38,366 nucleotides of DNA from positions 1 to 38,366 of IMG/VR virus record IMGVR_UViG_3300008954_000121; one strand, written 5' to 3'. Shown here piece after piece: positions 1,364 through 33,843 of the stretch (positions within the stretch are counted from its first letter, which is position 1; each line of letters begins with the position of its first letter). The position numbers and the translations under genes are program-made. Under the pieces are notes generated by a model. That model made no database searches, had not been told where the DNA came from, and worked only from the letters and a program-made list of their open reading frames with translations. Origin of the DNA: a virus.

Positions 1364-4300
1364 ATGGCTGAGCAAACATTCCGATCACCCGGATTTTTTG
1401 AAAAGGAAATAGACTTATCCGCGCGAAAGGTGGGACCAGTTGGTACCCCGGCCGGCATCATCGGCACTGCGGAAAAAGGTCCAGCATTCGTTCCAATGAC
1501 AGTGGGATCTTATGCAGATTTTGAAACACGATTCGGAGGCTTAGACCCCAATAGATTTGGGCCCTATGCTGTAAGAGAATTCCTAAAGAACCGTACTGCT
1601 GCAACATTCTTAAGAGTGTTAGGTGCCGGTGCAAATGAAACCAGTGTGGATATGAATACCACAAAAGTACAAGGTACTGTGAAAAATGCTGGCTTTGTAT
1701 TACGTCCGACCCAGCTTGATGCTGCAGGTGCAACTACAGCGCCAATTGATATGGGGGAGACAAGAAATAACTGTAAAGTGCAATTCCTCTGTGGCCTACA
1801 TGAAGTACCACAGAATGCTATAGATGGATATCCTGTATTTGTCAATAATGATAGCTGTGGTGTTGTTGACGGCGGCTCAGATGAAGCAAATCTAGTTAGG
1901 GCAATGATATTCACTCCCGATACAGCAAAAGTTATGGTTTTAAGTGGTGATGCTGAACATGATTTTACTGCTGATGGCGGAACAGCACTTGGTGACTTTG
2001 CATCTCTTGGTGCAACCTCAGGCGCAGAAGCCGGTACGTTTAAGTTGGTGATTTCCTCTTCATTAGGTAAACCATTTTCTCATTATCTTGGTCGCGACGA
2101 AGGTATCCGAGTACTTACTGCATCATTAGACCCTAATAACCGATCCTACATTGGTAAGGTGTTGAATAGGGACCCACATAAGTTTTATGAAATGCAACAT
2201 TATCTATATGCAGATTTTGCAATGGAAAATGAAATTGCATCAATTGCTGATGCTGATGCCACAAATGGTGGGACGGCCTCAATTGCACTTCTTTCCGGAA
2301 ACGGAGGAGCTACTAGCGCAGACTGTCCACTAACAACCAACGAGACATTTGAAGAGTTGTTTGGTCGATTCGATACCAGGTATACAACACCAACAACACC
2401 ATGGATTATATCCCAGCCATTTGGTGGTACAGAGTACAAATTATTTAGATTTGAAACAATCTCTGATGGTGCATATGGGAATGATAAATTAAAGATTTCG
2501 ATTGCAAACCTAAGAGCATCAACAGATCCTAAGGATAAGCATTGTTCATTCGAGGTCCAGGTACGCCGATTTGGTGATACGGATATGAATAAGCAGATGG
2601 TAGAACGTTATCCAGAGGTTAACTTAAACCCGAAGAGTGATAAATACATTGCGAATGTAATTGGCGACTATAAGGTAAGGTTTGACTTTGATCAGGAAAA
2701 CCCTGATGAACGCCGACTAGTTATTAGTGGCAAGTATCCAAATAAGTCATCGGCAATCCGCGTTATTATGGATGCCACAGTAGATCGTGGAGATGGATGC
2801 CTTCCGCAAGATATTATGCCATTCGGGTTCGAGGGTATACCGACCTTAAAAACCGCTGATTCTTTGACTGATGATACAACAGTTGCACTAACCCTGGGGC
2901 CAGATACCCTTGGTGATGTAAACGCACCTTCCCGCCTAGATGGTTTAACTGGGGCAGGGATGGTTGCTGATGACACATTTTTGAAGAACTCAATTATCCC
3001 ACCTCTACCACTAAGATTTAAGTGTACAAGAGGAAAGACAAAAGACTCTACAGAAGCAGGTGTAACAATAGATTTCTTAGGTGACCCAGGTGTGGATGAA
3101 AAGGCAGACTCAAGGTTATATTGGGGTGTTAAATTTGAACGATGCCCAAGGGAATCTAGCCTTCCAGGTGCCGCATTGAACCCCAATGTATCTGCATTGC
3201 CGAACCCTCTAGTTTCTGCATATACACAATTTCTTGGAATTGCAGACTTAGATACAATGATGACCGGTTCTGCGGTAAATACGTTTAACAATAACAAGTT
3301 TACCTTGGCAAGAGTTGCGCTACAAGAAGATGATATTGGCGACGTCGATAGCACTGCTAAAACACATATGAAAGGTGCAGCCTATATCAGAAATGGTGTA
3401 CCTGATCCATCGACATATACAATAGATGGCCCAGATATTCCTGGCCGCTTAACGCTAGCATCTCTTGTTCATGACAGTGTAAATGCACAAGGTGTAATGT
3501 TTAATAGGTTTACTCCTTTTGCTAAGTTCACGCTACCATTCTCTGGTGGTTTCGATGGCCTAAATATGTTGTCCAGGGATGATGCAAATATGACAGACAG
3601 GGCATGTTCATCTGCTACAGATGGATTGGCAAATGAATCTGCTGCTGCAGCTGGTCTTGGAGATGCAGAAGATGTAACAGGTACCGGTAGGGATAACAAT
3701 GTTGTAGCATCTTATAATCTTGCAGTCCATCAGATGACCGATCCAATGACAGTAAACACAAATATCTTGTGTGTTCCTGGAATCAGGGACCCATTTGTCA
3801 CCGACTTTGCTGCAGATAGGACTAGGGAATACTCAAAGGCATTCTACCTAATGGACCTTGAGAATTACTCAGAGGCTACTGATAGAATATTCCTTGATGC
3901 TGGTACTCTAAATGCTGGTACTGCTAATGAAATTGATCATGATGCATTAAAGCCAGATATCAGAGTAACCTCCGAACAATTTGAGGGACGTGCAATTGAC
4001 AACAATTATTGTTCAACGTATTTCCCAGATTGCTACATTGATGACCCAGTTAACAACCTTAAGGTAAGGGTACCTGCTTCTGTGGTTGCCCTCGCAGCGT
4101 TAGGGTTTAATGATAAGGTTGCGTACCCATGGTTCGCACCTGCTGGTTTTAATCGAGGTGCTTTAGGGTTTGTCTCTAATGTAATGACAAGGTTAACTGC
4201 CGGAGACAGAGACACATTATATGATGCGAGAATTAATCCAATTGCAGTCTTTCCAAGCGGTGGATTTGTAATCTTTGGACAAAAGACGCTGCAGATGAAT

Positions 4301-4627
4301 AAATCAGCGCTTGATAGAGTTAACGTCCGAAGGATGTTACTTGAAGTTAAGAGATTGGTCACTGGTGTGGCTGATAAGATTCTCTTTGAACAGAATACGC
4401 CACAAACAAGGGCGCGATTCGTTGGAGGTGTTACCCCATTACTAGCATTGGTACAGGCTCAGGCAGGTATTGAGCAATTCCAGGTAGTTATGGATGACAC
4501 AAACAATACACAGGAGGATTACGAAAGTAACCGCTTAAATGGTAGGATTGTTGTGGTACCGACTCGAGCAATTGAGTTTATCGCAATCGATTTTATTATA
4601 ACCAATAGCGGCGTAATATTCGCATGA
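1364..4627 (+). CDS. Tail sheath protein, first of two tandem paralogs
   Basis: This protein would polymerise around the tail tube and contract during injection (T4 gp18 family). The N-terminus has the sheath signature of an extended arm followed by GTPAGIIGTAEKGPAFVP (residues about 28-45) and a ferredoxin-like segment ending REFLKNRTAATFLRVLGAG. The C-terminal 170 residues carry the conserved sheath core: FAPAGFNRGAL, LYDARINPIAVFP, ALDRVNVRRMLLEVKR, ending in a beta strand pair (VPTRAIEFIAIDFIITNSG). At 1087 residues it is far longer than T4 gp18 (659). The extra length lies in the middle, where surface domains are usually inserted. ATG 1364 follows AAGGAG with 8 nt spacing. The next gene, 39 bp downstream, is a homolog with the same two ends and a diverged middle. 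Confidence 0.93.
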   Translation: MAEQTFRSPGFFEKEIDLSARKVGPVGTPAGIIGTAEKGPAFVPMTVGSYADFETRFGGLDPNRFGPYAVREFLKNRTAATFLRVLGAGANETSVDMNTTKVQGTVKNAGFVLRPTQLDAAGATTAPIDMGETRNNCKVQFLCGLHEVPQNAIDGYPVFVNNDSCGVVDGGSDEANLVRAMIFTPDTAKVMVLSGDAEHDFTADGGTALGDFASLGATSGAEAGTFKLVISSSLGKPFSHYLGRDEGIRVLTASLDPNNRSYIGKVLNRDPHKFYEMQHYLYADFAMENEIASIADADATNGGTASIALLSGNGGATSADCPLTTNETFEELFGRFDTRYTTPTTPWIISQPFGGTEYKLFRFETISDGAYGNDKLKISIANLRASTDPKDKHCSFEVQVRRFGDTDMNKQMVERYPEVNLNPKSDKYIANVIGDYKVRFDFDQENPDERRLVISGKYPNKSSAIRVIMDATVDRGDGCLPQDIMPFGFEGIPTLKTADSLTDDTTVALTLGPDTLGDVNAPSRLDGLTGAGMVADDTFLKNSIIPPLPLRFKCTRGKTKDSTEAGVTIDFLGDPGVDEKADSRLYWGVKFERCPRESSLPGAALNPNVSALPNPLVSAYTQFLGIADLDTMMTGSAVNTFNNNKFTLARVALQEDDIGDVDSTAKTHMKGAAYIRNGVPDPSTYTIDGPDIPGRLTLASLVHDSVNAQGVMFNRFTPFAKFTLPFSGGFDGLNMLSRDDANMTDRACSSATDGLANESAAAAGLGDAEDVTGTGRDNNVVASYNLAVHQMTDPMTVNTNILCVPGIRDPFVTDFAADRTREYSKAFYLMDLENYSEATDRIFLDAGTLNAGTANEIDHDALKPDIRVTSEQFEGRAIDNNYCSTYFPDCYIDDPVNNLKVRVPASVVALAALGFNDKVAYPWFAPAGFNRGALGFVSNVMTRLTAGDRDTLYDARINPIAVFPSGGFVIFGQKTLQMNKSALDRVNVRRMLLEVKRLVTGVADKILFEQNTPQTRARFVGGVTPLLALVQAQAGIEQFQVVMDDTNNTQEDYESNRLNGRIVVVPTRAIEFIAIDFIITNSGVIFA

Positions 4628-4666: not shown

Positions 4667-7600
4667 ATGGCTGAATTGACCTTTAAGAGTGCCGGAGTAG
4701 CTACTCGCGAAATTGACTTAAGTGGACCGACTACAGTCAAACCGCAGGGAACACCTGCTGGCGTAATCGGTACTGCATTAAAAGGTCGGGCTTTCGTTCC
4801 GATCACATTCGCTACGTATCAAGACTTCGTTGCCGAATTCGGAACTTCCGACGGCGAAAAGTTCGGTCCACTTGCAGTATACGAGTGGATGAAGAACTCT
4901 AGAGCAGGAACATATGTAAGAACCCTGGGCTGTGGAGACGGTACCAGAAGAAGAGTAGACAGTCCTAATGAGGGCAGTGTCACTAATGCAGGGTTTCAAG
5001 TAGGTGCAGAACTTCCCCAGGAAGATGGGTTCTTAGGACAAAATGCTTATGCTGGTGCTTCTTCCGGAACAGATCGTGGCGAAGAGCTCGGCCGAACATA
5101 TTTTCTGGGTTGCCTCACAACTGAGACAGCTACTTCAAATCAGTTTTCTGATGCCGGCATAAATGTTCTTGGTGAAACAATTTCAGACACACAATCCGCA
5201 CCAATTTTGCGTGGTGTCTTATTGGCACCTTCCGGAGTGCTTTTATCATTATCAAGTTCTTATTATGCCGATGGCTTAGCCTTAGGACACAATCAGCCGT
5301 CTGCACATATAAAGGGTGCATTTGGTGCCACCGCGGCTAATAATGATGGCGGGTATATGATTGGGTCCGTTAATAAAGCAAATAACGGTCAGCAGTTTGT
5401 TATGATCTTAAATGGCCATATCAATACCCCTGAATTCCCAAATATTTTAACCGCATCTTTCGACCCGCAGGCACCAGATTATTTTAGAAATATTTTTAAT
5501 GCTGATCCAGGTTGTACAGAACATGCAGGTCACTGTTTGTACACATCATGGGATGTATATAGCAATCATGCAACTGCAGGTGCTACAGGGGTTTGTGAAA
5601 CCGATTTCTTGGCTGGCGGAGCATCAGGATTTCAAAACGTCGAAGAGTGCGCATTCTTGGTAACAGGGTCACTTGACAGAAACGACGGACATGCTACAGT
5701 TCCGAACCCAGAATGTTTTGAAGACAGATATAGAACAGCACGCTCTCCGTGGTTAACATCACAGAAGTTTGGTGGCAAGGTCAAAAATCTTTTTAAGATT
5801 CATGCACTTGATGATGGTACTGCTGGTAGTGATGGGTTCAAAATTTCAATTGGTAATATTGCGGCATCTAGTAATGAGTCGACAGACTTCGGAACATTTG
5901 ACCTATTCGTTAGGGCAATGGAAGATGATGATGATAATGTTGTTGCATTAGAAAAGTTTTATAAGCTTGACCTTGACCCAACTTCAGACCGCTATGCAGC
6001 TAGAGTAATTGGTGATCAATATACATACTACGATTTTGATAAGCCAGATGGTTCTCAGAAATTAGTAATTGAAGGCATTCATCCGAATCGTTCCAAGTAT
6101 ATCCGCCTTGAAATGGCTAGTGAGGTTGATAAGAATACAATCGACGATTCAGCATTACCAGTTGGCTTCCGCGGCCACAGTCACCTCGTAACATCAGGTT
6201 CAATAACAGAGGTTACCCAGGGCAGCTCCACCGCAGACAGTTTATTAAGTTCAACCCCAATGGGGGCAGATCAGACTGACGGTACTAATGTTCTTTGGTC
6301 AGCAGACCCACTAAACAGCATAATCCAAATGCCGGTTCCTCTACGGGGTGACATTACGAAGGGCTCGGGTACAGGTAGAAAAGTTGGGCCCAATCTCCAC
6401 TGGGGTGTACAATTCCAGGTTAACGATGACCCAGCTGAGCCAAATAAGAGTAGAGTATTTGAGAAATCAATTTATGGATTTACCAAGTATTTCCCTGACT
6501 TTCAAACTTCCGATTTGAATTTGATGGTTGGTGATAATGCTGGCACTCCTGATGATAGTATTGATGATCTATTTACAGTTCTTGACTCTGATAGATTTAA
6601 CAATAATGCTTTCTCTCTAGAAAATATTGAAGTTCAAGGAATTGATGCTGATGCAGGTGCACTAGATAATAAGAAGTGGGAAGATGCAGTATATCGAAGA
6701 GACGGCATCGCCACCGGAGATTCTCCAGATGCATTATCTACAGGAAGACTACTTGGCGGCGCCCACTTCCAAGATGACTTTACAAATATAGGTGCTAGAA
6801 AGCATCGCAAGTTTAGCTTATTCCTCCAGGGCGGTTTCGATGGTCTCAATATTCTAGATCATAATAAAGCTAAGATGACAGACCTTGCATGCCGTAGAGA
6901 GATGCAAGATTCTCAAGGCCAGGGTGGTGTTGATGGACCAACAGTTGCATCTTACCGCAAGGCACTTGATGTAATGGCTGAGAAGGCTGATGTTGATATC
7001 AAGCTTCTTGCAATTCCAGGCCTTAGAGACCCATCTGTATCTGAATATGCTATTGACACATGTGAGGATCGATTCGACGCGATGCTTATTATGGATGTTG
7101 TAGAGGTTGATGATGTAAATGAAGTTGTAGAAAATAAAGCAACTCAGGTTATTAGCGTTTCAAACACCGTAGAGAACCTTCTTGGTAGAAACCTTGATAC
7201 ATCATTTGCCGCAGCATACTTTCCAGACTGCGTGGTCCCTGACCCGACAACAAGAACAAATGTATTATGCCCACCATCTGTTGCAGTCCTTGGGGCCTTT
7301 GCACTTAATGATGCGGTAGCACATCCTTGGTTTGCCCCAGCAGGTTTCACAAGAGGTGCTCTCTCCAGGGTTGTAGAGTCCCAGGTTAAGCTTAATAGAG
7401 CGAACCTTGATACACTATATGAGGCGGACATCAATCCTCTATCGGCCTTCCCACACACTCCAGGTGTTGTGGTCTGGGGCCAGAAGACACTGCAGGCCGC
7501 AAAGAGCGCGCTCGACAGGGTCAATGTACGTCGCCTGCTTATTGAAATCAGGCGTCAGGTTAAACGAGTTGGAAATACCCTCTTGTTCGAACCAAACCGG

Positions 7601-7825
7601 GCAGAGACGCTAGCACGCTTCTCGAACGCGGTTAACCCGATCCTCTCAAGGATCCAGCAACAGCAAGGTCTTGATAAGTTCAAGGTTGTGATTGATACCA
7701 CAACTACAACCCAGGCTGATGTTGAAAACAACACTGTGCGCGGGAAGATCTTCTTACAACCAACACGTACTGTGGAATTCATCTCTTTGGATTTCGTGGT
7801 TACAAATGCTGGAATGGAAGTATAA
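4667..7825 (+). CDS. Tail sheath protein, second of two tandem paralogs
   Basis: This is a second gp18-family sheath subunit of 1052 residues. Its N-terminus parallels its neighbour (GTPAGVIGTALKGRAFVP at about 29-46, then YEWMKNSRAGTYVRTLGCG). Its C-terminus shares FAPAGFTRGALS, LYEADINPLSAFP, ALDRVNVRRLLIEIRR and a terminal strand pair VEFISLDFVVTNAG. The central region is Asp/Gly-rich and clearly diverged from the first sheath gene, with Cys residues the core does not need. ATG 4667 is preceded by GGAG with 8 nt spacing. The TAA stop is followed at once by a 7-bp RNA hairpin (7825-7841) without a U-tract. Both copies have intact ends and full-length frames, so neither looks like a pseudogene. 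Whether both are assembled in one tail or used alternatively cannot be told from sequence. Confidence 0.92.
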   Translation: MAELTFKSAGVATREIDLSGPTTVKPQGTPAGVIGTALKGRAFVPITFATYQDFVAEFGTSDGEKFGPLAVYEWMKNSRAGTYVRTLGCGDGTRRRVDSPNEGSVTNAGFQVGAELPQEDGFLGQNAYAGASSGTDRGEELGRTYFLGCLTTETATSNQFSDAGINVLGETISDTQSAPILRGVLLAPSGVLLSLSSSYYADGLALGHNQPSAHIKGAFGATAANNDGGYMIGSVNKANNGQQFVMILNGHINTPEFPNILTASFDPQAPDYFRNIFNADPGCTEHAGHCLYTSWDVYSNHATAGATGVCETDFLAGGASGFQNVEECAFLVTGSLDRNDGHATVPNPECFEDRYRTARSPWLTSQKFGGKVKNLFKIHALDDGTAGSDGFKISIGNIAASSNESTDFGTFDLFVRAMEDDDDNVVALEKFYKLDLDPTSDRYAARVIGDQYTYYDFDKPDGSQKLVIEGIHPNRSKYIRLEMASEVDKNTIDDSALPVGFRGHSHLVTSGSITEVTQGSSTADSLLSSTPMGADQTDGTNVLWSADPLNSIIQMPVPLRGDITKGSGTGRKVGPNLHWGVQFQVNDDPAEPNKSRVFEKSIYGFTKYFPDFQTSDLNLMVGDNAGTPDDSIDDLFTVLDSDRFNNNAFSLENIEVQGIDADAGALDNKKWEDAVYRRDGIATGDSPDALSTGRLLGGAHFQDDFTNIGARKHRKFSLFLQGGFDGLNILDHNKAKMTDLACRREMQDSQGQGGVDGPTVASYRKALDVMAEKADVDIKLLAIPGLRDPSVSEYAIDTCEDRFDAMLIMDVVEVDDVNEVVENKATQVISVSNTVENLLGRNLDTSFAAAYFPDCVVPDPTTRTNVLCPPSVAVLGAFALNDAVAHPWFAPAGFTRGALSRVVESQVKLNRANLDTLYEADINPLSAFPHTPGVVVWGQKTLQAAKSALDRVNVRRLLIEIRRQVKRVGNTLLFEPNRAETLARFSNAVNPILSRIQQQQGLDKFKVVIDTTTTTQADVENNTVRGKIFLQPTRTVEFISLDFVVTNAGMEV

Positions 7826-7878: not shown

Positions 7879-8367
7879 ATGGCCGAAACACTATCCGTTA
7901 CTGATATGCTTCCAAATAAGTTTGAGCCGAAGCGCAAATTTAGATGGGTCTTTGCAATCGAGGGAATCGATGCATTCTTAATGAAGACTGCCGCTCGCCC
8001 AACTATTAATACTGCTTCACAAGAAGTTGCGTATATGAACTCTACGAGGTTCCTTGCTGGAAAAACAAAGTTTGATGCAATTTCTGTAACGCTGCACGAT
8101 CCAATTGCTCCTTCTGGTGCTCAACAGGTCATGGAATGGGTACGTACCCACTTTGAATCTGTATCAGGTCGTGCTGGCTATGCTGACTTTTACAAGCGTG
8201 ATTGTCAACTTAAGCTTCTAGATCCTGTTGGTACTGTAGTTGAACTATGGGACCTTAAGGGGTGTTTTCTTGAGTCCGCTGCTTTCGGCGAACTAGATTA
8301 TGCCGGCGAAGATCCTGCTGAGGTTTCTATAACCATCCGCTTTGACAACGCTGTCCTACAATATTAG
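7879..8367 (+). CDS. Tail tube protein (gp19-like)
   Basis: This 162-residue protein would stack as rings inside the sheath to form the rigid tube. Its length matches T4 gp19 (163). The start MAETLSVTDMLPNKFEPKRKFRW, the DAFLMKTAARP strand, the amphipathic segment around GAQQVMEWVRTHFES, and the closing FGELDYAGEDPAEVSITIRFDNA are typical of gp19/Hcp-like tube subunits. The position directly after the sheath genes is the canonical one. ATG 7879 is preceded by AGGAG. The gene is followed by a strong rho-independent terminator, so the sheath and tube genes end a transcription unit here. Confidence 0.93.
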   Translation: MAETLSVTDMLPNKFEPKRKFRWVFAIEGIDAFLMKTAARPTINTASQEVAYMNSTRFLAGKTKFDAISVTLHDPIAPSGAQQVMEWVRTHFESVSGRAGYADFYKRDCQLKLLDPVGTVVELWDLKGCFLESAAFGELDYAGEDPAEVSITIRFDNAVLQY

Positions 8368-8440: not shown

Positions 8441-8525
8441 AATAGTTTACAAGAAATTCTTGGGTGGTGATATTTAATATGCACGTGCATGAGGCACACT
8501 ATAAACGTAATTGATGGAGAAAACT

Positions 8526-9398
8526 GTGTCAGACGAAACAAAGACTAGTAAAACGGAATCAAGGGAAGACAAGAACCAGATCTTTACATCATCTGCGTCA
8601 GAGGCAATGCCCCGTCGCAACGTGATGAAGGAAGACTTTGGGTATGAAGTTCCTGTAGAGGCGGTACCACTTCCGTCAAGAGGCAGAGTGTATCCTCCGG
8701 ATAGCCCTCTTGCCGGCCAAGATACCATAGAGATTAAGGCAATGACGGCCCAGGAGGAGGATATCCTTACATCCAGGGCCCTAATTAAGAAGGGTACGGT
8801 AATCACACACCTTCTTAAGTCATGTATGATTGACAAGCGTATCAATCCTAACGATATGATTGCCGGTGATAGAAATGCTGTTATGACAGCACTAAGAATT
8901 ACAGGGTATGGTCAGGAATATAATGTTGAAGTAGATTGTCCTGCATGCAGTGTTCGTTCGAAGCAAGGATTTGACCTTGCTGCCTTACCAATTAAGCGCT
9001 TAGAAATTGAACCAGTTGCTGAGGGTGCAAACTTATTTGAGATTACACTTCCCGTAACAAAGAAGGTAGTAAGATTTAAGTTTCTTGACGGTAATGATGA
9101 AGAAGAAATCATGATTACTGCTGAGCGTTCTAAGAAGGTAGGCCTACAAGGGGAGAACCTTGTAACAACCCGACTAAAACATTCAATTGTTGCTATTGAT
9201 GGAACAACCGAGAAGGGGAAAATTGGGCTATTCATCCGAAACATGCCAGCACGTGACTCGTTAACGCTTAGAAAGTATATCGATAAAAACGAGCCAGGCA
9301 TTGATATGAAGTCATGGATGGAGTGCCCAAGTTGTTTCGAGTCCTCGGAGGTGCGCCTGCCCTTGGGCGCCACGTTTTTTTGGCCTGACTCCGAATGA
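8526..9398 (+). CDS. gp26-type baseplate/tail assembly protein, zero-frame product
   Basis: The 290-residue product resembles the T4 gp26 / T4_baseplate family. It has a charged N-terminus, then a core beginning near YEVPVEAVPLPSRG with helical segments around AMTAQEEDILTSRALIKKG. Two Cys pairs (CPAC at 138-141 and CPSC at 267-270) are likely to share one zinc ion. I prefer GTG 8526 as start because GGAGA sits 5 nt upstream; TTG 8511 and ATG 8514 overlap that Shine-Dalgarno. The gene lies between tube and tape measure, the position of tail assembly chaperones in most tailed phages. A T7 run at codons 284-285 precedes the stop by 15 nt and leads into an open downstream frame (next entries). 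The family call is from sequence resemblance; the chaperone role is an inference from position. Confidence 0.82.
   Translation: MSDETKTSKTESREDKNQIFTSSASEAMPRRNVMKEDFGYEVPVEAVPLPSRGRVYPPDSPLAGQDTIEIKAMTAQEEDILTSRALIKKGTVITHLLKSCMIDKRINPNDMIAGDRNAVMTALRITGYGQEYNVEVDCPACSVRSKQGFDLAALPIKRLEIEPVAEGANLFEITLPVTKKVVRFKFLDGNDEEEIMITAERSKKVGLQGENLVTTRLKHSIVAIDGTTEKGKIGLFIRNMPARDSLTLRKYIDKNEPGIDMKSWMECPSCFESSEVRLPLGATFFWPDSE
9375..9381 (+). other. Candidate programmed frameshift site (T7 slippery run)
   Basis: Seven consecutive T are read as ACG TTT TTT TGG in the zero frame. A Phe tRNA on TTT 9378-9380 can re-pair fully after moving +1 (next codon GGC) or -2 (next codon TTT). Both moves enter the same downstream open frame. 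The zero frame stops at TGA 9396. The shifted frame is open from 9310 to 9639, so the shift must occur in that interval. A GGAGG (9347-9351) and an imperfect GC-rich hairpin (9351-9373) lie just upstream. Confidence 0.6.
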
Positions 9399-9642
9399 TA
9401 AAGAGGTTTTTCTTGAACATACGTTTTTGCTAATGTATTACATGGGATTCACTTATAATGAGTGCTATGCCATTCCTATCTGGCAAAGAATATGGTTTAT
9501 TAAGAGAATTAATAAAGAGTTAAAAGCCTCTCAAAATAATGAGCAGGGTAGTAGAGCAGCACACCATAATACTCCAGATGCCCGTTCAATGATGGGTAGA
9601 GCTCGTGCTCAAGTACCATCAAAATTAAGGCGCTTTACATAA
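9382..9642 (+). CDS. gp51-like C-terminal extension, reached by frameshift from the gp26-type gene
   Basis: This stretch of 86 codons is in the +1/-2 frame relative to the upstream gene. It reads without a break from GLTPNDKEVFLEHTF into a helical segment MYYMGFTYNECYAIPIWQRIW followed by FIKRINKELK and a polar, basic tail ending KLRRFT. The pattern of a short helix, a Gly-Phe-Thr/Tyr turn, Pro and Trp-Phe-Ile-x-Arg resembles the small gp51-type hub assembly proteins of T4-like phages. The only internal ATG candidates (9433, 9448) lack a properly spaced ribosome binding site, while recognisable coding continues upstream of them to the T7 run. The fused product would be 371 or 372 residues. 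Separate initiation, for example from ATG 9433 by coupling, remains possible. Confidence 0.62.
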   Translation, partial: GLTPNDKEVFLEHTFLLMYYMGFTYNECYAIPIWQRIWFIKRINKELKASQNNEQGSRAAHHNTPDARSMMGRARAQVPSKLRRFT

Positions 9643-9677
9643 TGCGCAATAGTTATTGATAATAAGGGGTGATGAAC

Positions 9678-9932
9678 ATGAGTCAAACAAAAAATAATAC
9701 TTTTAATGCCACAGTGGCTGCACACATTCTTGGTAAGAAAACGAATGTAAGTCTATCAGGTTCTCCAGAACGAGTAGGTGCAACTAAGGATGTTATTGTT
9801 GCATCTAAGGAACTATATGAGGCATTATGTAGTAATAATTCAACTTTTGAACTTGTAACAGAGCTTCTTAAGAAAAAGAATAAAGCCTCTCAGAGATTCC
9901 AAGATATAATGGGTGTCCCCTGGGTGTTATAA
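9678..9932 (+). CDS. Small conserved-looking phage protein of unknown function
   Basis: I do not recognise a function. From ATG 9678 the product is 84 residues. AAGGGG at 9664-9669 is spaced 8 nt from this ATG, whereas GTG 9669 and ATG 9672 overlap or abut it. The N-terminal 35 residues are Thr/Ser/Asn-rich; the C-terminal half is a charged helix (KELYEALCSN, ELLKKKNKASQRF) ending in the hydrophobic GVPWVL. It lies between the gp26/gp51-type gene and the tape measure gene, so a role in tail assembly or in protecting the tape measure protein is plausible but unproven. Confidence 0.6.
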   Translation: MSQTKNNTFNATVAAHILGKKTNVSLSGSPERVGATKDVIVASKELYEALCSNNSTFELVTELLKKKNKASQRFQDIMGVPWVL

Positions 9933-10000: not shown

Positions 10001-13000
10001 ATGGCTGACGATCTTAATAAACAACTAGGGATCCAACAACAGATCAACAAGATCCTTGAAAAGAGGTCTGGTGTCCTTAAGGCACAAGGTGATCTTTTAT
10101 CAGGGCAGGCACAGCTAGCCAAAGAACTGTGTAAGGCCCTAGACTGTTCTGAGCTTGATGATATGGAAGCCAGGCTTGGTAGTATCAAGGATGGCATGGC
10201 CGCAGCAGCTGAACAGGCTGGTGCTATGGGTGCAACGACTAGTGAAGCCCTTGAGAATGCCGCCGATGAAGCAGAAGGTCTTTCAGACAAATTAGGTGGC
10301 TTAGCTGGTGGCCTCTCAACAACTAAGACCGCCGCTGTAGGTGCCGGCGTAGGTATGGTTACGGCATTCAAGGGAGCCGGCCAGCAACTTAAAGGAATGG
10401 GCAAACTCTTAGGCAGTGTCACTAAGGGTATCTTTAGTATAGGCACAGCTGTGCTTAGTATTCCAGGCCAAGTTTTAGGTGGCCTTATAAGTCAAGCCAA
10501 TGCTCTTCATGGGGCCATGAGTCCTCTTCGTGAGGCTATAGAGGACGTGCGCGAAGAGTTTGGTAATCTATCACAAGGCTCCGGCGCCGCCGTCATGGAT
10601 ACATTTCGAGACCTCCAGGGCGAAGCCGGTAACCTGGCCGGTTCAGGGATGTCAATGGGCCGAATGTTCGGATACGGTCCGGCCGGCGCAGCAGCAGCAT
10701 TAAAGTTTGTAAATGAACAGGCTTCAGCAATGGGGCCAATGTTCAATGTCCTTAAAGATCAAGTCGCAGAAATGGGGCCAAAGTTTGTAGTATATGCCAA
10801 AGGCTTAGGTTTGTCAGGCGAGGCAATGAAAGGTTTGGGCCTCAATGCTAAAGCTAGCGGCAAGACAATGGAAGAGGCCCTGCAAGAGACAGCCAACTAT
10901 TCAGTTCAATTAGGAAAGCAATTTGGTGTTTCTGCAAAGTCTATAAGCAAAGACATGGGGGAAATGTCTAAGGATGTGAAGAACTTTGGTACCTTCGGTC
11001 CTAAGACGCTGGCAAAAATGTCAGTATATGCTCAAAAGCTTGGTATAGACATTAAAGAACTTACTGGTGTCGTTGATAAGTTCGACAACTTTGAAGATGC
11101 TGCTAAGAGTGCATCAATGCTGGCACAATCATTTGGTATGAACATTGATGCCATGGCAATGATGAATGAGCAAGACCCTGCCAAACGAATTGATATGATG
11201 AAGAAGTCATTCGATGAGACCGGCAAGAGTGTAGAGGATCTTAGTCGCCAAGAATTGAAGCTATTGGCTAGCCAGATGGGCCTTTCAGAAGAGGCCGCCA
11301 AAGCCGCACTTTCGGGTGATACAGATTATGACGATATTTCAGCTGGTGCAGATAAGGCTGAAGATTCTGCTCTTTCACAAGCTGAGGCAATGAAAGAACT
11401 ATCAAAATCCATTAAGAAGGTTTTTGATTCCGGCGGCGATAGTAAGAGCTTCTTCGGCGAGTTGATGAAAGGCTTTTCAGATGGTATTTCTAAGACTGCC
11501 GAATATAGGGCAATGCTTAAGAATATCACTCAATCATTAAAGGTTGTTTATTGGGCCGGCCGCGAACTCGGTGCCATGTTCGTGAAGTTCTTTCCAGGTG
11601 TTAAAGATATAATCGGTGGCCTAACAGATATATTTGACCCTGCACGATTTAAGAAATTAATGAGTAAAGTCACTGATGCATTCAAAGACTTTTTCAAAAT
11701 GGTGACTGTAGACCCTAAGGCAGGTATGAAAAACCTGATGCAGAAACTACAAGACATATTTCAGGACTTCTTTAGCTCTGGTGGTTCTGCCGGTAAGAAA
11801 GTAATGGAGGGTGTTAAGAAGTTTTTTGGCACTATGGTACAAATGCTTATAGCATCAATCCCTATTATTATTAAGGGACTAGCCAATGTGATCAATAAAC
11901 TAGCCGACTTCCTCGCCAGCCCACCAGCAACATCAGGTATGGGTGCAAATATCCGAAAAGCATTTGTTGCGGCATTTGATGCGGTCAAGGAAGCCCTCCC
12001 CGATCTCGCCGCAGCCGTTATGAGATTATTTGGTGAGCTCTTTAAAGCACATGGTGGCAAGATGATAGCCGTTGGTAGTGCACTGGGCGCAGTTGTAATA
12101 GGTAAAATGTTATTGGTCATGACCGCCAGTGCATTAAAGGGTGCAGTTGTTGCAAAAATGACCCAGATGTTTGCTGCAAAATTTGGGGCAGCAACAGAAG
12201 GTGCCGCAAAACAAGTTGGAGATGGGGGTTCTGCAAAAAGTCTTGGTACAGCAATGAAAGACGGGTTTAAGGGATTAGCCGAGGGTGTAAAAGGCTTCTT
12301 TGAGTCGATTGCAAGTATTAAGCCTGACACAATTATTAGAGCAGGTATTGCAATGGCACTTACTGCTATTGTGATGGGTGTTTCAATGATACTATTTTCA
12401 TTAGCAATATTGGCAGTAGGTAAAATCCTTAGCCTTCTTTCATTCAGTGAGTTAGTGAATGCGTTTGTTGGTCTTGCCGGCGCTGCTGTAGCATTAGCAA
12501 TAATGATGTATGCATGTGCACCTTTAGCTGCACCTCAAGCAGCCGGCGCAGCAATGCTCGGAATGCTTATGGGTGCTGCCGTACTAACTGTTGGTGGTAT
12601 TATATTTGCACTTGCATTAATAGTCGTCACAAAGGTAATGAGCGGAATCGATGCTGGGGCAGCTATAGGAGCTATGGCACTATTAGCAGTAACGGCAATT
12701 GCAATGGTCGCAATGGTAGTAGCAGGTGCTGTTTTAGGGTCATTGATACCGGTCATGGGCATTGCAATGCTCGGCCTTGCGGCCGGTGCTCTTTTCCTAA
12801 CTGCTGGTACTGCAGTATTTGTTGTAGCACTAATAGCAATATCTGGCCTTGTACAACAGATTAAGAACCCGACGGCCGCGGCCGCGGGGATGGCTGCTGT
12901 GGCAATAATGACAGTGGCATTAGCTGCGATGGCATATGCACTTACGATTGCAGCACCTACATTTGTTACAGGCCTAGCAGGTCTGATTCCTGCCGGTTGG

Positions 13001-15544
13001 TTCTTATTAGCGATGGTGCCTGCAGTGATAGCACTGGGGATAGTTGCCAATATTGTACAGTCTATAAACTCTGCGGCTGACTGGGCAAAAGTAGGATTAT
13101 CATTTCTTGCACTAGCATTAGTCTTTGTATCAGTCGCCGCCATGGCATATATTGCAACGTATGCAGGGGTTGCAGCAATCCCAGGTGCTGTAGGGTTATT
13201 ATTGATGATCCCACTTTTGCTTGTATTACCCATGGTAGTAACAATGATATCAGATTCACTCAAGGCTGTGGAAGCATCAGGCCTTGATTGGCAAAAAGCA
13301 GCGAAGCAGTTCTTGAGCTTGACTGCTGTCCTGCTTTCAATAGGCGCAATGTCTGTTATAGCAACATATGCCGGTGTAACTTCTATAGTAGGTGCTATAG
13401 GATTAGCACTTATGATTCCATTCCTACTTCTCATGCCAATAATTGTTGGGATGTTTGTTGATACTGCAAAAGCATTTAGCGAGATGGGTGATGTAAAGAA
13501 ATTAGCAACAGGATTTCTTTCCTTAATTGCGATAATGGGTTCAATAGGTGTAATGGCATATATAGCTCAAGCCACAGGGATCCTGGCACTAATGGGGGCA
13601 GTTGGCTTAGTAGGTGTTGCAGTTTTTGCTGTAGCATTCAATAAGGTATTTATTCCAGCATTTAATCCCCTAGCAAAAAGCCTAAGTGCACTTGGTGATC
13701 TTAAATCATTAGCAAAAAATATGGTAATGCTAACGATTATATTTACCGCTTTAGCAGCTATGGGAATTGGATCATTGTTGCTAGCAGTCTTTGCGATTCC
13801 TGGTGTAATGTGGGTAGCAGAAAAAGGATTCGAGGCAGTTGCTGATATAGCTAATGCTGCAGTAACCCACCTGGGCCCTGCGCTAAGACAGATAGAGGAT
13901 ATGAATATAGCCGACCCCACTGGTCTTGGTAAAAAGATAACAGCCTTAGCAAGCGTGATACAAACTGTATCATTAATGGGTGATGTAGTTCTTAAGATAG
14001 CAATGCTTGATGTATTATCAACTGCTGCAGGAGGAAAGTCTGGTGACGTTCTAAGTGGTGCCGCTGGGTTTATGGATTCAATGATGGCCGGTGCTGCCAC
14101 ACTAATTACAACGATAATTGAGCAAACTAAGTCAATGAAGGTTGCAGATATTAAGAAAGCAGAAGCAGTTGGTGGTATTTTAGCTGCAGTTGGATCTCTA
14201 ATGCAAGCGCTTCAACCGCCTCCCGGGTTATTTGAAACAATGAAAACGATGGCTGGGGGATTATTCGGGGGTAAGGCAATTGATGTGAAGTCAATAATGG
14301 AACCATATGCCGCGGCAATGAAAGATATAATGCAATCAATGCTAGACCTCGTTGTTCCAATGATAACTCAACTGATGGCTATACCTCTTACAGTTGGGCC
14401 AAAAACAACAAAGGCAAAGGCTGAAGCAATTGCCGCTGTTATAAATGCAGTTGCTTCTATGGCTAAGGGGTTTGGTGAGATGGCTGGTGGTGTAATGCAG
14501 ATGAATGCCGACCAACAAGGGTTATTTAGTTCAGGCCCTACGGTGCAAAAGACGATGGAAGATTATTCATCTGTTTTAACTACAATTATGGAAGCTGTTA
14601 AATGCCATATTCCGTCTATTGTTACTACTGTCATGGATGCAGCTATGGCAATACCTGGAAAGCCTGAGGATGCAAAAGCTAAATTAGAAGTAATCTCACT
14701 TGCAATGGAGGCTGTTGGAAACTTTGCCTCTGCGATATCAGAAATGTCCGCGTTGATTCCAAAAGATACAGGTTCATGGTGGCCTTTTGGGGAAGACCCA
14801 GAACCTTTAACAGAATTTATGTCAACAGTAAAGTCAATTGTAGACGTTGCTGCATGCCATATTCCAGGAATTGTAAATGCATTAATGGGAATAAAAATTG
14901 ATAAGCCCGAAGAAGCCAAGGTAAAGATGGGTGTTATTGCTGATGCAATGCGTGCAACTGCAGACTTTGCAAAAATGATGTCGAGCATTAAGGATATGAA
15001 AGCAACCGATATATCTGGTAAGTTTACCTCAGTAGCCACCGCAGTGGTAGGTGCCCTTAATACTCCTGTAAAATCAATTGTTGATACGCTCGTTGCATTT
15101 CCAACTGTCGATGATAAGCCGCTAATAGAAAAGATAAATGCATTAGAAAATGTAATGAACCCACTAATCAGATTCACTCAGAAGTTTAAGACATTTAGTG
15201 AAGGTATGAAAAACATGGAAGGGGTTGCAGAGTCGAACCTCGTTACCAATTTTCAATTGATTATTGAAGAAATGGCCATGATCCATGATATACTGCAATA
15301 TGACATGCCATCCCTCGATCTTGTGGGTGTTTTGGATCAATTTGGCCAGAATATGTCGATATCATCTGAGACGATCTCAGTTAACAATAAGCCCATCAAT
15401 ATTACCGTTAACCTAAGCCTATCCATGGATGCTGATGAAATTGCACAAGGCCTTTCAAAACGTAAAGGCAAATATTCTGTTGCCCTATCAAGAAGTAATG
15501 GAGAGGGCGTTCCAGGAACAACGGATATGCAAGGTACACAATAG
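10001..15544 (+). CDS. Tape measure protein
   Basis: This is the longest gene of the window, 1847 residues, located after the tube and chaperone-like genes. The protein would set tail length and be ejected ahead of the DNA. Residues 1-130 are Ala/Gly/Glu-rich helix suited to coiled coil. Residues about 100-760 are amphipathic helices with Gly-rich turns. Residues about 777-1270 are a long hydrophobic region with many potential membrane segments. The remaining third is amphipathic and repetitive, ending in a beta segment (INITVNLSLSMDADEIA). Two internal repeat families are visible (separate entries). GGAG with 10 nt spacing precedes ATG 10001. At roughly 1.5 angstrom per residue, a rule known for other phages, the length would correspond to a tail of about 275 nm. 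Confidence 0.92.
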   Translation: MADDLNKQLGIQQQINKILEKRSGVLKAQGDLLSGQAQLAKELCKALDCSELDDMEARLGSIKDGMAAAAEQAGAMGATTSEALENAADEAEGLSDKLGGLAGGLSTTKTAAVGAGVGMVTAFKGAGQQLKGMGKLLGSVTKGIFSIGTAVLSIPGQVLGGLISQANALHGAMSPLREAIEDVREEFGNLSQGSGAAVMDTFRDLQGEAGNLAGSGMSMGRMFGYGPAGAAAALKFVNEQASAMGPMFNVLKDQVAEMGPKFVVYAKGLGLSGEAMKGLGLNAKASGKTMEEALQETANYSVQLGKQFGVSAKSISKDMGEMSKDVKNFGTFGPKTLAKMSVYAQKLGIDIKELTGVVDKFDNFEDAAKSASMLAQSFGMNIDAMAMMNEQDPAKRIDMMKKSFDETGKSVEDLSRQELKLLASQMGLSEEAAKAALSGDTDYDDISAGADKAEDSALSQAEAMKELSKSIKKVFDSGGDSKSFFGELMKGFSDGISKTAEYRAMLKNITQSLKVVYWAGRELGAMFVKFFPGVKDIIGGLTDIFDPARFKKLMSKVTDAFKDFFKMVTVDPKAGMKNLMQKLQDIFQDFFSSGGSAGKKVMEGVKKFFGTMVQMLIASIPIIIKGLANVINKLADFLASPPATSGMGANIRKAFVAAFDAVKEALPDLAAAVMRLFGELFKAHGGKMIAVGSALGAVVIGKMLLVMTASALKGAVVAKMTQMFAAKFGAATEGAAKQVGDGGSAKSLGTAMKDGFKGLAEGVKGFFESIASIKPDTIIRAGIAMALTAIVMGVSMILFSLAILAVGKILSLLSFSELVNAFVGLAGAAVALAIMMYACAPLAAPQAAGAAMLGMLMGAAVLTVGGIIFALALIVVTKVMSGIDAGAAIGAMALLAVTAIAMVAMVVAGAVLGSLIPVMGIAMLGLAAGALFLTAGTAVFVVALIAISGLVQQIKNPTAAAAGMAAVAIMTVALAAMAYALTIAAPTFVTGLAGLIPAGWFLLAMVPAVIALGIVANIVQSINSAADWAKVGLSFLALALVFVSVAAMAYIATYAGVAAIPGAVGLLLMIPLLLVLPMVVTMISDSLKAVEASGLDWQKAAKQFLSLTAVLLSIGAMSVIATYAGVTSIVGAIGLALMIPFLLLMPIIVGMFVDTAKAFSEMGDVKKLATGFLSLIAIMGSIGVMAYIAQATGILALMGAVGLVGVAVFAVAFNKVFIPAFNPLAKSLSALGDLKSLAKNMVMLTIIFTALAAMGIGSLLLAVFAIPGVMWVAEKGFEAVADIANAAVTHLGPALRQIEDMNIADPTGLGKKITALASVIQTVSLMGDVVLKIAMLDVLSTAAGGKSGDVLSGAAGFMDSMMAGAATLITTIIEQTKSMKVADIKKAEAVGGILAAVGSLMQALQPPPGLFETMKTMAGGLFGGKAIDVKSIMEPYAAAMKDIMQSMLDLVVPMITQLMAIPLTVGPKTTKAKAEAIAAVINAVASMAKGFGEMAGGVMQMNADQQGLFSSGPTVQKTMEDYSSVLTTIMEAVKCHIPSIVTTVMDAAMAIPGKPEDAKAKLEVISLAMEAVGNFASAISEMSALIPKDTGSWWPFGEDPEPLTEFMSTVKSIVDVAACHIPGIVNALMGIKIDKPEEAKVKMGVIADAMRATADFAKMMSSIKDMKATDISGKFTSVATAVVGALNTPVKSIVDTLVAFPTVDDKPLIEKINALENVMNPLIRFTQKFKTFSEGMKNMEGVAESNLVTNFQLIIEEMAMIHDILQYDMPSLDLVGVLDQFGQNMSISSETISVNNKPINITVNLSLSMDADEIAQGLSKRKGKYSVALSRSNGEGVPGTTDMQGTQ
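13079..13780 (+). repeat. About 69-residue tandem repeats in the hydrophobic part of the tape measure protein
   Basis: Three units of 69, 68 and 69 codons begin at 13079, 13286 and 13490, with a partial fourth from 13697. Each opens with Asp-(Trp/Val/Leu)-x-Lys and FL-x-L or similar. In units 1 and 2 this continues to an IATYAGV motif, GA-x-GL-x-LMIP, and an amphipathic x-D-x-x-KA end. Unit 3 keeps the frame of the pattern but diverges in its second half. Confidence 0.75.
14147..15130 (+). repeat. 81-88-residue repeats in the C-terminal third of the tape measure protein
   Basis: Four diverged units start near 14147, 14411, 14672 and 14915. The shared pattern is a Lys/Ala-rich opening helix (AKAKLEVI, AKVKMGVI), a second helix with Phe/Met (FASAISEM, FAKMMSSI), a variable linker, a third helix, and then CHIPSIV or CHIPGIV with a following KPEDAK or KPEEAK joint. 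The CHIP and KPE(D/E)AK motifs are clearest between the second and fourth units. Confidence 0.65.
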
Positions 15545-22809: not shown

Positions 22810-24033
22810 ATGTTGATTTCTGTTCATCCAAATGTTTTAGGTGTTTCGAAATACCTGGTCTGTGATCCTGAATCCGGATCATATTCCTGGTCAACGTCGA
22901 GCCCAGAGGATGCATGGGTATTTGGAGACCCATCCACAATAAAGAGCTTAGATGTTATAATGAAAATGGGAAATATAGAGATTCCCCGAATAGAAAACTC
23001 GGCCCATATAAAGGCTTTTAGAACTTTAATGGGTGAAGATGTGCCAAAATTGCCATGGCACAAGGTATTACCCACCCATTGTTTCCAGGAGATGATACAA
23101 ACGTTGGTGTCTAGCCTCACACAGGCCCTGGAGTCCTTTATTAGTTGTGCATATGGGGAAACCTTTATAGCTGAGCGTGCCTTCCTCCTGGGCCTTTCCA
23201 GGGCTCGTGTAGATATACAAAAGCTCTCTAAGTATTTGGAATCCGAGGATAATTCAACGGTAACTAGTATCTTGAATAGTTTTTGTCCTACCATCGGTGA
23301 AAGAACCAGGCCAGTAGTATATGATCAAGCTGCAACAGCAACTGGCCGGCTTACTGTAAAAAGCGGCCCGATGATCCTGACACTTCCAAAGAAATACAAA
23401 GACCTAATAAAGTCAGAACACCCACAGGGTGAGATTGTTCAGCTTGATTTTGTTTCATTAGAACCAAGAGTTGCTAGGTTTATTTCCGGAAATATTCCAG
23501 AGGCAGATGTATACGAGAGTATGTCCAAAGAATTATTTCAAGGCATGCTCTCTAGGGATCAAGCTAAGTTAGCTATATTATGTGCCCTGTATGGGGCATC
23601 TTCCAGAAGACTACAAAATATGTTGGGTAATGATCTAAACTCAGTTCAGGTTATTCAGGGTGTCAAAAGATACTTTGGTGTACCAAGATTGATCGATCAA
23701 CTTAAGCACTCTTTAAGAACTGACGGCCATATGACTAATTTATTTGGTAGAAAGCTAGTGCCAGATCGTACAGATGAAAATATACTAGTTAACCACTATA
23801 TCCAGTCGACATCTGCAGATGTAGCATTACTTGGTTTTCAAAACGTAATGAATGAACTATCATCTGCTGGTGCCGATATTAAGCCCCTGTTTGTAATCCA
23901 TGATGCGCTGGTTCTAGACGTTCCCCCGTCCTGTCATTCAAAGATTAGGGCCATGGCATCCAAAGGAATTGAAATAGAGGGTATAGGATCTTTTCCGCTA
24001 GGTCTAGAAGTCATCAGAGCTTCTGGTGCATAA
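22810..24033 (+). CDS. Family A DNA polymerase, polymerase domain only
   Basis: The 407-residue product matches the fingers/palm/thumb part of Pol I. Visible motifs are TATGRL (176-181), motif A QLDFVSLEPR with catalytic D213 and E218, and the O helix R249-x3-K253-x3-L257-x3-Y261-G262. These are followed by NLFGRKL (311-317), a QSTSADVAL segment, and motif C VIHDALVLD with catalytic D365. No 3'-5' or 5'-3' exonuclease domain is present. Leu occupies the position of Pol I Phe762, and Ala follows the motif C Asp where Pol I has Glu883. ATG 22810 is the first start after an in-frame stop; it has no clear Shine-Dalgarno, which suggests low expression. It is probably the replicative polymerase, with proofreading, if any, encoded elsewhere. 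Confidence 0.88.
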   Translation: MLISVHPNVLGVSKYLVCDPESGSYSWSTSSPEDAWVFGDPSTIKSLDVIMKMGNIEIPRIENSAHIKAFRTLMGEDVPKLPWHKVLPTHCFQEMIQTLVSSLTQALESFISCAYGETFIAERAFLLGLSRARVDIQKLSKYLESEDNSTVTSILNSFCPTIGERTRPVVYDQAATATGRLTVKSGPMILTLPKKYKDLIKSEHPQGEIVQLDFVSLEPRVARFISGNIPEADVYESMSKELFQGMLSRDQAKLAILCALYGASSRRLQNMLGNDLNSVQVIQGVKRYFGVPRLIDQLKHSLRTDGHMTNLFGRKLVPDRTDENILVNHYIQSTSADVALLGFQNVMNELSSAGADIKPLFVIHDALVLDVPPSCHSKIRAMASKGIEIEGIGSFPLGLEVIRASGA

Positions 24034-33227: not shown

Positions 33228-33240
33228 TGAAGGAGAAACG

Positions 33241-33843
33241 ATGAAATGGACCACAAATATATCCCCGCTCATTAAGGAAATTGAGCTTAGAAAGAATCCT
33301 GTTATTGTGAGAGTCAATAAGTTTGATGAGGAGGCTGCAACAAAGTTTAATCTTGAAATAGCCCAAGCACATAATACAGGCCAGAAGGTGATTCCGATTG
33401 TGATTGATTCTTATGGGGGACAAGTATACTCTTTAATGGCAATGGTTTCTACAATAAAACATGCAGAATTACCAATTGCCACTATTGTTGAAGGGAAAGC
33501 GATGTCTTGCGGTGCTATTCTATTTTCATTTGGTGAAGAGGGAATGAGGTTTATTGACCCCAACGCCACAATAATGATTCATGATGTATCCTCTTGGGAG
33601 TATGGAAAAGTAGAAGAGGTAAAAGCCAGTGCAGATGAGACCGATCGGTTAAATAAGCTGGTGTACACACACATGGCCCGCAACTGTGGGAAGAAAGATG
33701 ATTACTTTCTAAAGCTAGTTCATAAGAAGGGTCATGCAGACTGGTACCTAAATGCCGAAGATGCAAAAAAGCATGGGTTAGCAAATCATCTTAGGGTACC
33801 TAAGTTTCATATAGATATATCGGTAGATATTGGGTTTGAATGA
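33241..33843 (+). CDS. ClpP-like serine protease
   Basis: A 200-residue ClpP-fold protein with an intact triad: Ser89 in GKAMSCGA, His114 in IMIHDV and Asp167 in HADWYLNAEDA. DSYGG at 56-60 replaces the NSPGG-type oxyanion motif. ATG 33241 has AAGGAG 5 nt upstream; an upstream in-frame start at 33205 would lie within the end of nrdJ. The size equals bacterial ClpP, but residues matching the Clp ATPase docking surface are not evident, and no Clp ATPase is encoded nearby. ClpP-type enzymes act as head maturation proteases in some phages and as cellular-type proteases in others. Here the neighbours are metabolic and lysis genes, so its substrate is unknown. Confidence 0.87.
   Translation: MKWTTNISPLIKEIELRKNPVIVRVNKFDEEAATKFNLEIAQAHNTGQKVIPIVIDSYGGQVYSLMAMVSTIKHAELPIATIVEGKAMSCGAILFSFGEEGMRFIDPNATIMIHDVSSWEYGKVEEVKASADETDRLNKLVYTHMARNCGKKDDYFLKLVHKKGHADWYLNAEDAKKHGLANHLRVPKFHIDISVDIGFE

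Follow-up and report, generated by a model that had tools for sequence, protein, structure and literature searches.

We report that the viral DNA analyzed here, a stretch of 38,366 nucleotides to which we refer as the window, very probably encodes a two-form tail assembly chaperone from a single gene of the T4 gp26/gp51 family, the longer form being reached by +1 slippage. That slippage occurs, how efficient it is and that the product acts as a chaperone are what we infer from sequence, on the strength of gene position, profile and structure comparison, and a junction that keeps its layout in distant relatives.

A gp26/gp51-type gene lies between the tail tube and tape measure genes

The genes concerned are the following.
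7879..8367, plus strand: tail tube protein (gp19-like), adjoining the chaperone gene upstream (phrog_4542, E 9.7e-30; PF06841, E 5.5e-5).
8526..9398, plus strand: putative TAC-N, the G-like short chaperone of the T4 gp26/gp51 family, 290 aa (PF12322, phrog_150; AlphaFold2).
9382..9642, plus strand: putative extension in the +1 frame, T-like and homologous to the C-terminus of T4 gp51, 86 aa (profile comparison; AlphaFold2).
10001..15544, plus strand: tape measure protein (phrog_4070, E 2.8e-6, and phrog_58, E 1.4e-4, both tail length tape measure; position).

The first open reading frame (ORF) starts at GTG 8526, with a GGAG at 8516-8519, 6 nt upstream, and ends at TGA 9396-9398. Its product matches the profile PF12322 over the full length (T4_baseplate; E 6e-11, 42.8 bits for a cut-off of 24.5) and the baseplate hub family phrog_150 (E 1.5e-15). 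In the window as in its phage relatives, this gene sits between the tail tube and tape measure genes, the slot typical of G/GT chaperones, and the tape measure protein is its presumed client.

The first half and the extension were predicted separately with AlphaFold2. For the first half (residues 37-290, pLDDT 90.9), the top PDB entry is 2ob9, the tail assembly chaperone of HK97, at a weak match (E 1.1, probability 0.30), while a viral library returns SP-15 and T4-like hub proteins. The window shares with lambda G/GT the tube/tape measure slot and the pairing of a short form with a frameshift-extended one, but lambda uses a -1 shift where the window has +1, and no sequence homology to lambda G/T is detectable, as no Phage_TAC or lambda G/T family is found among the Pfam and PHROG matches. 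The comparison of both halves to gp26, gp51 and lambda proposed in an earlier, sequence-only reading of this DNA thus delivers its T4 side and not its lambda side, and what would tie the gene functionally to lambda G/T is its position, its architecture and a weak fold match rather than sequence homology.

Between the chaperone and tape measure genes lies a small ORF (9669-9932, 87 aa) with no family match above chance, and phage Mel-JY01 likewise has a small ORF in this place. Elsewhere in the window, two adjacent and very large tail sheath proteins (1364-4627, 1087 aa; 4667-7825, 1052 aa) both contain sheath C-terminal domains, and a gene for a ClpP-like head maturation protease (33205-33843) lies well away from the structural genes, overlapping the end of a ribonucleotide reductase gene. 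The match of a 407-aa protein (22810-24033) to phage DNA polymerase is confined to the C-terminal part of the latter (phrog_17 positions 967-1195), so this polymerase may be split or incomplete.

The slip site and the +1 frame are conserved in relatives

The first ORF and its extension meet at a short T-rich site.
9375..9383, plus strand: putative +1 slip site TTT TTT TGG (second codon TTT or CTT, then TGG, in 88/88 junctions).

A run of seven T residues (T7) occupies positions 9375-9381, and the zero frame reads ACG TTT TTT TGG CCT GAC TCC GAA TGA, placing the stop (9396-9398) 15 nt past the run, just as the sequence-only reading had described. The frame at 9376, which is +1 relative to the first ORF, is open from the T7 run to a TAA at 9640-9642; the first ATG, GTG or TTG that it contains past the run is TTG 9427, and there is an ATG at 9433.

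A tblastn search against phages yielded 21 records at identities under 40%, and contig scans added 80 loci from viral contigs and 16 from genome contigs. Phages Mel-JY01, immuto, LIS04, SP-15, SagM-GXN1 and BRock all have the frame that follows the gene at +1. Homolog alignment had been proposed as a check on the conservation of site and frame, and both are conserved: among window-type relatives, dereplicated and with contig-end cases dropped, the extension frame (the longer one) lies at +1 in 91 of 92 and at -1 in one, so the arrangement is not due to chance. Short-looking extensions at three loci (L063, L066 and L088) proved to be contig ends.

The junction is TTT-YTT-TGG-C or TTC-TTT-TGG-C in all 88 window-type relatives, which fall into three site types: the T7 site TTTTTTTGG in 68, TTTCTTTGG in 12 and TTCTTTTGG in 8. 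Where the second slip codon encodes Phe, it is TTT in 76/76 cases and never TTC (background 0.74, p 9e-11), and where it encodes Leu, it is CTT in 12/12 (background 0.26, p 1e-7); these p-values overstate the evidence, given the shared descent of the sequences. After thinning to a set of 66, the three site types are all still present. The site persists in relatives as distant as about 36% identity. The site reads TTTCTTTGG in Flavobacterium phage immuto and TTTTTTCAC in Bacillus phage SP-15. Members of the SP-15-type +1 class carry codons other than TGG after the slip codon (TTT TTT CGT, CAT or AGT; CTG TTT CAG), so the wider family as a whole does not depend on UGG.

The base preceding the run also differs between classes. 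In the +1 window-type relatives it is T in only 6/88, versus 34.6 expected, a rarity that amounts to avoidance of the -1 heptamer which a T in this place would create; in the -1 class recovered by the SP-15-type scan it is T in 26/26. The single -1 case among the window-type relatives (L057, junction near 3470-3490) is also the only one with TTC TTC TGG and has a T before the run; its frame may reflect a genuine switch to -1 or, alternatively, the gain or loss of one base in the contig sequence.

Candidate stimulators lie upstream of the slip site

Two further elements precede the site.
9347..9351, plus strand: Shine-Dalgarno-like GGAGG, 28 nt 5' of the first slip codon, putative +1 stimulator (motif excess in the family).
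9351..9373, plus strand: 5' hairpin, separated from the slip codons by 1 nt; putative +1 stimulator (MFE -11.7 kcal/mol; family excess over synonymous resampling).

Compared with synonymous resampling, GGAGG is enriched at -28 (29/88 loci, 5.0 expected) and at -22 (19, with 5.6 expected). A Shine-Dalgarno-like motif is present in 66/88 loci; a count confined to the stretch of 15-30 nt gives 61, with 26.4 expected. The stretch of 30 nt preceding the +1 site folds more stably than synonymous-codon resampling predicts (mean z -1.32 for n=80, -1.45 for n=88), with little signal further upstream, while the same procedure in the cyanophage -1 class gives an upstream z of 0.10 and a downstream z of -4.07, indicative of strong structure on that side. 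Downstream structure as a stimulator of the +1 shift is unsupported (z -0.83 against a background near -0.6).

Watson-Crick stems of at least 5 bp occur upstream in 27/88 loci, versus 11 expected; the register varies, and 21 distinct stem sequences are seen. A 5-bp stem is missing at about two thirds of loci, so the hairpin is not universal, and its excess, like that of the motif, is a statistical signal among related sequences. Stem-loops placed 5' of a site can stimulate +1 shifting in constructs, and the 5' stem-loop of T4 gene 60 is thought to pull on the mRNA (PMC5009743).

Forward slippage by the ribosome is the favored route into the extension

The element common to all site variants is YUU followed by U (88/88), which permits re-pairing in the P site onto UUU at +1. 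In 20/88 relatives the run is broken by a C (TTTCTTT or TTCTTTT, longest T run 3-4) with the same frame relation. Because such runs exclude both polymerase slippage on a T run and a -2 shift at those loci, we read the junction as +1 slippage at UUU_U or CUU_U, an RF2-type site; the argument is direct for the C-broken relatives and carries over to the window by homology. The sequence-only reading had left the shift as +1 or -2: its first option is the better one, and the second fails for the C-broken variants.

In the model that we propose, most ribosomes would stop at TGA 9396 and release the short form, TAC-N, equivalent to lambda G and T4 gp26. Some would slip forward while UGG is in the A site and the P site holds UUU 9378-9380 (in some relatives, CUU), the slipped tRNA re-pairing with the overlapping UUU 9379-9381, and would translate 86 more codons to give the long form, TAC-NC, equivalent to lambda GT and T4 gp51. 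Coating of the tape measure protein would fall to the short form and recruitment of tube subunits to the long form, and the Shine-Dalgarno-like GGAGG and the hairpin just 5' of the site probably favor forward slippage, somewhat as in RF2.

The site shares with RF2 (prfB) a CUU_U or UUU_U slip codon in the P site and an upstream Shine-Dalgarno-like element, here a putative stimulator; CUU_U is the conserved RF2 +1 site, with UUU_U in a minority of species (PMC5009743). It departs from RF2 in the A site, where the Trp codon UGG takes the place of the UGA stop, in the hairpin that separates the Shine-Dalgarno-like motif from the site, and in its product, a putative phage chaperone rather than an autoregulated release factor.

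An RNA polymerase that stutters on the T7 run, aided by the nascent hairpin, would yield mRNAs with one base fewer or two more that read into the extension. The window, where the run lies directly behind the hairpin, and the majority of relatives with an intact T7 are compatible with such transcriptional slippage, for which cases stimulated by stem-loops are known (PMC5009743). We nonetheless judge it improbable: the C-broken loci retain not only the frame relation but also the hairpin excess (z -1.48 vs -1.62) and the Shine-Dalgarno-like motif (18/20), an element that makes sense for ribosomes and not for a polymerase.

Coupled reinitiation past the TGA, with the extension as a separate small gene, is very unlikely. 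Gene callers annotate the extension separately in some phages (Mel-JY01, SP-15), and TTG 9427 and ATG 9433 could serve as starts in the window, but the extension is conserved from the residue directly after the junction (GL.....E..F.L.Y...F...Y.LP...R.WF..R), so that conserved residues (GL, E..F) lie upstream of both codons. A start codon with a Shine-Dalgarno sequence precedes the extension core in just 9/85 loci, compared with 71/85 for the first gene, which bears out the earlier remark that the second frame has no good start of its own. Reinitiation would, moreover, need neither a fixed frame relation nor conserved slip codons.

A -2 ribosomal shift on the T run would enter a reading frame identical to that of a +1 shift, and the U7 of the window permits it. 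It is hardly plausible for the family, since TTTCTTTGG and TTCTTTTGG offer no clean -2 re-pairing and yet show the same frame relation. Finally, an inactivated fusion gene or a sequencing error (T7 for T6 or T8) can be set aside: runs are typical error sites, but a 9-nt length kept in 88 junctions, across three sequence variants and relatives down to about 36% identity, means that the junction is not an error, and the T6 misread that the sequence-only reading had named as a possible undoing is thereby refuted.

The extension matches the C-terminus of T4 gp51

In T4, gp26 (208 aa) and gp51 (249 aa) each cover the whole of PF12322, and gp51 alone runs on past it, by ~45 further residues, so the two are paralogues that match the short and long forms. 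Comparison with hhalign of extension family A2 with A7, the T4-like extensions including T4 gp51, gave a probability of 96.5 (E 8.6e-10), and the window-type and cyanophage TAC-N families align with an E-value of 9.6e-13. T4 gp26 and gp51 therefore belong to the same family as the window gene (PF12322, phrog_150), gp51 with the same C-terminal extension domain; they differ in being two separate, divergently transcribed genes with no frameshift, where the window would make both forms from one gene by a +1 shift. A gp26-type gene followed by a gp51-like frame had been the sequence-only description: the extension does match gp51, but only in its C-terminal extension, and the first ORF is homologous to both gp26 and gp51.

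The extension is predicted as a small helical domain (core pLDDT about 95) with no meaningful PDB match, and a tblastn search with the extension alone against phages gave no matches. DUF6760 (PF20546) matches the window extension at 17.1 bits, below the Pfam cut-off of 27 bits, and gives weak matches (E 0.1 or less) in 24/47 extensions, the best of which (4.4e-5) also lies below the curated cut-off. In DUF6760, Pfam may have captured this chaperone extension under separate gene annotations (9376-9639 in the window, and in relatives). Weak Pfam hits of single extensions to other families were dismissed as chance.

Relatives differ in the direction of the predicted shift

P-SSM2, S-PM2, P-RSM6, KVP40, phiM12, phiW-14 and Vi01 each have a single gp26-like gene, behind which the extension lies in the -1 frame. 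Five of the seven carry U UUU UUC as the site, phiM12 has U UUU UUU, and the site is non-canonical in the Salmonella phage Vi01, whose ORF end at 2307 (locus L102) shows no canonical heptamer (GAA ATT TTC ATT TAA). Contigs of the cyanophage type have T TTT TTC in 76/76, and a further group (L153-L185) has U UUU UUA/G/C sites with the extension in the -1 frame and the preceding base always T. The -1 relatives in the T4 superfamily (P-SSM2, S-PM2, P-RSM6, KVP40, phiM12, phiW-14) thus encode a homologous chaperone with a shift near FF codons, as in the window, but use U UUU UUC/U and, in the cyanophage set, downstream structure, whereas the window has +1, YUU_U then GG, and upstream structure. 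The proposal that gp26/gp51 is a G/GT-type pair, expressed as one frameshifted gene in relatives, is supported by PF12322, by the extension profile match and by the overlapping frames of cyanophages, KVP40, phiM12 and phiW-14.

The classes comprise the T4 superfamily (-1 or separate genes), jumbo phages (-1), the window clade (+1), the SP-15 type (+1), the BRock type (+1) and the U UUU UUA/G group (-1). In a tree of 73 first-half proteins, the +1 label changes at least four times on well-supported branches (5 changes in all; shuffled mean 22.6), the tree being the product of a quick search with several long branches and unsure individual placements, and with one member of doubtful class (L188) that has no recognizable slip site. 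We tentatively suggest, at somewhat below even confidence, that one homologous chaperone has gone over from -1 to +1 or back on several occasions and that its stimulators changed sides too, from downstream structure (-1) to a Shine-Dalgarno-like motif and hairpin upstream (RF2-like +1) or the reverse. Looping out of the hairpin could put the Shine-Dalgarno-like motif ~8 nt from the slip codon, or the hairpin could pull the mRNA backwards and push the ribosome forward.

Discussion

Vladimirov, Gautam and Davidson (2022, doi 10.1016/j.virol.2021.11.003, via PMC12846349 and PMC10885494) recognized T4 gp26 and gp51, known as hub assembly chaperones, as the tail assembly chaperones of that phage, so this idea, although right, is not new. 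As summarized in these two articles, that work also describes poly-T slip sequences within the chaperone genes of T4-like phages, some of which have a short gene together with a longer, fused one. A 2016 review had held G-T frameshifting to be conserved in long-tailed phages 'except T4' (PMC5009743). Nor is +1 as such unprecedented, since it has been suggested for the tail chaperone of the archaeal myovirus HSTV-2 (PMC5009743). Vandenendeviridae and Andersonviridae, contractile-tailed phages likened here by architecture, also carry a poly-T slip site shortly before TAC-N ends, but with a -1 shift and a GTTTTT motif (PMC12846349) rather than the +1 of the window. In the open-access literature searched, which leaves most subscription papers outside, we found no earlier description of a +1 class in the gp26/gp51 family, nor of repeated -1/+1 switching with mirror-image stimulators.

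The gp51 of cyanophage and marine vibriophage has been reported without its first ~200 residues (PMC3037559), and our findings offer a candidate explanation, namely that this gp51 is the shifted tail of gp26. Annotators could likewise join many wrongly split chaperone genes. Taken together, the findings place T4 in a continuum that runs from two genes (T4) through a -1 shift (cyanophages) to a +1 shift (the window and its relatives). One assembly system would thus be wired in three different ways, by forward slip, by backward slip and by separate genes, which makes these phages a natural set to compare when asking what determines whether a ribosome slips forward or backward.
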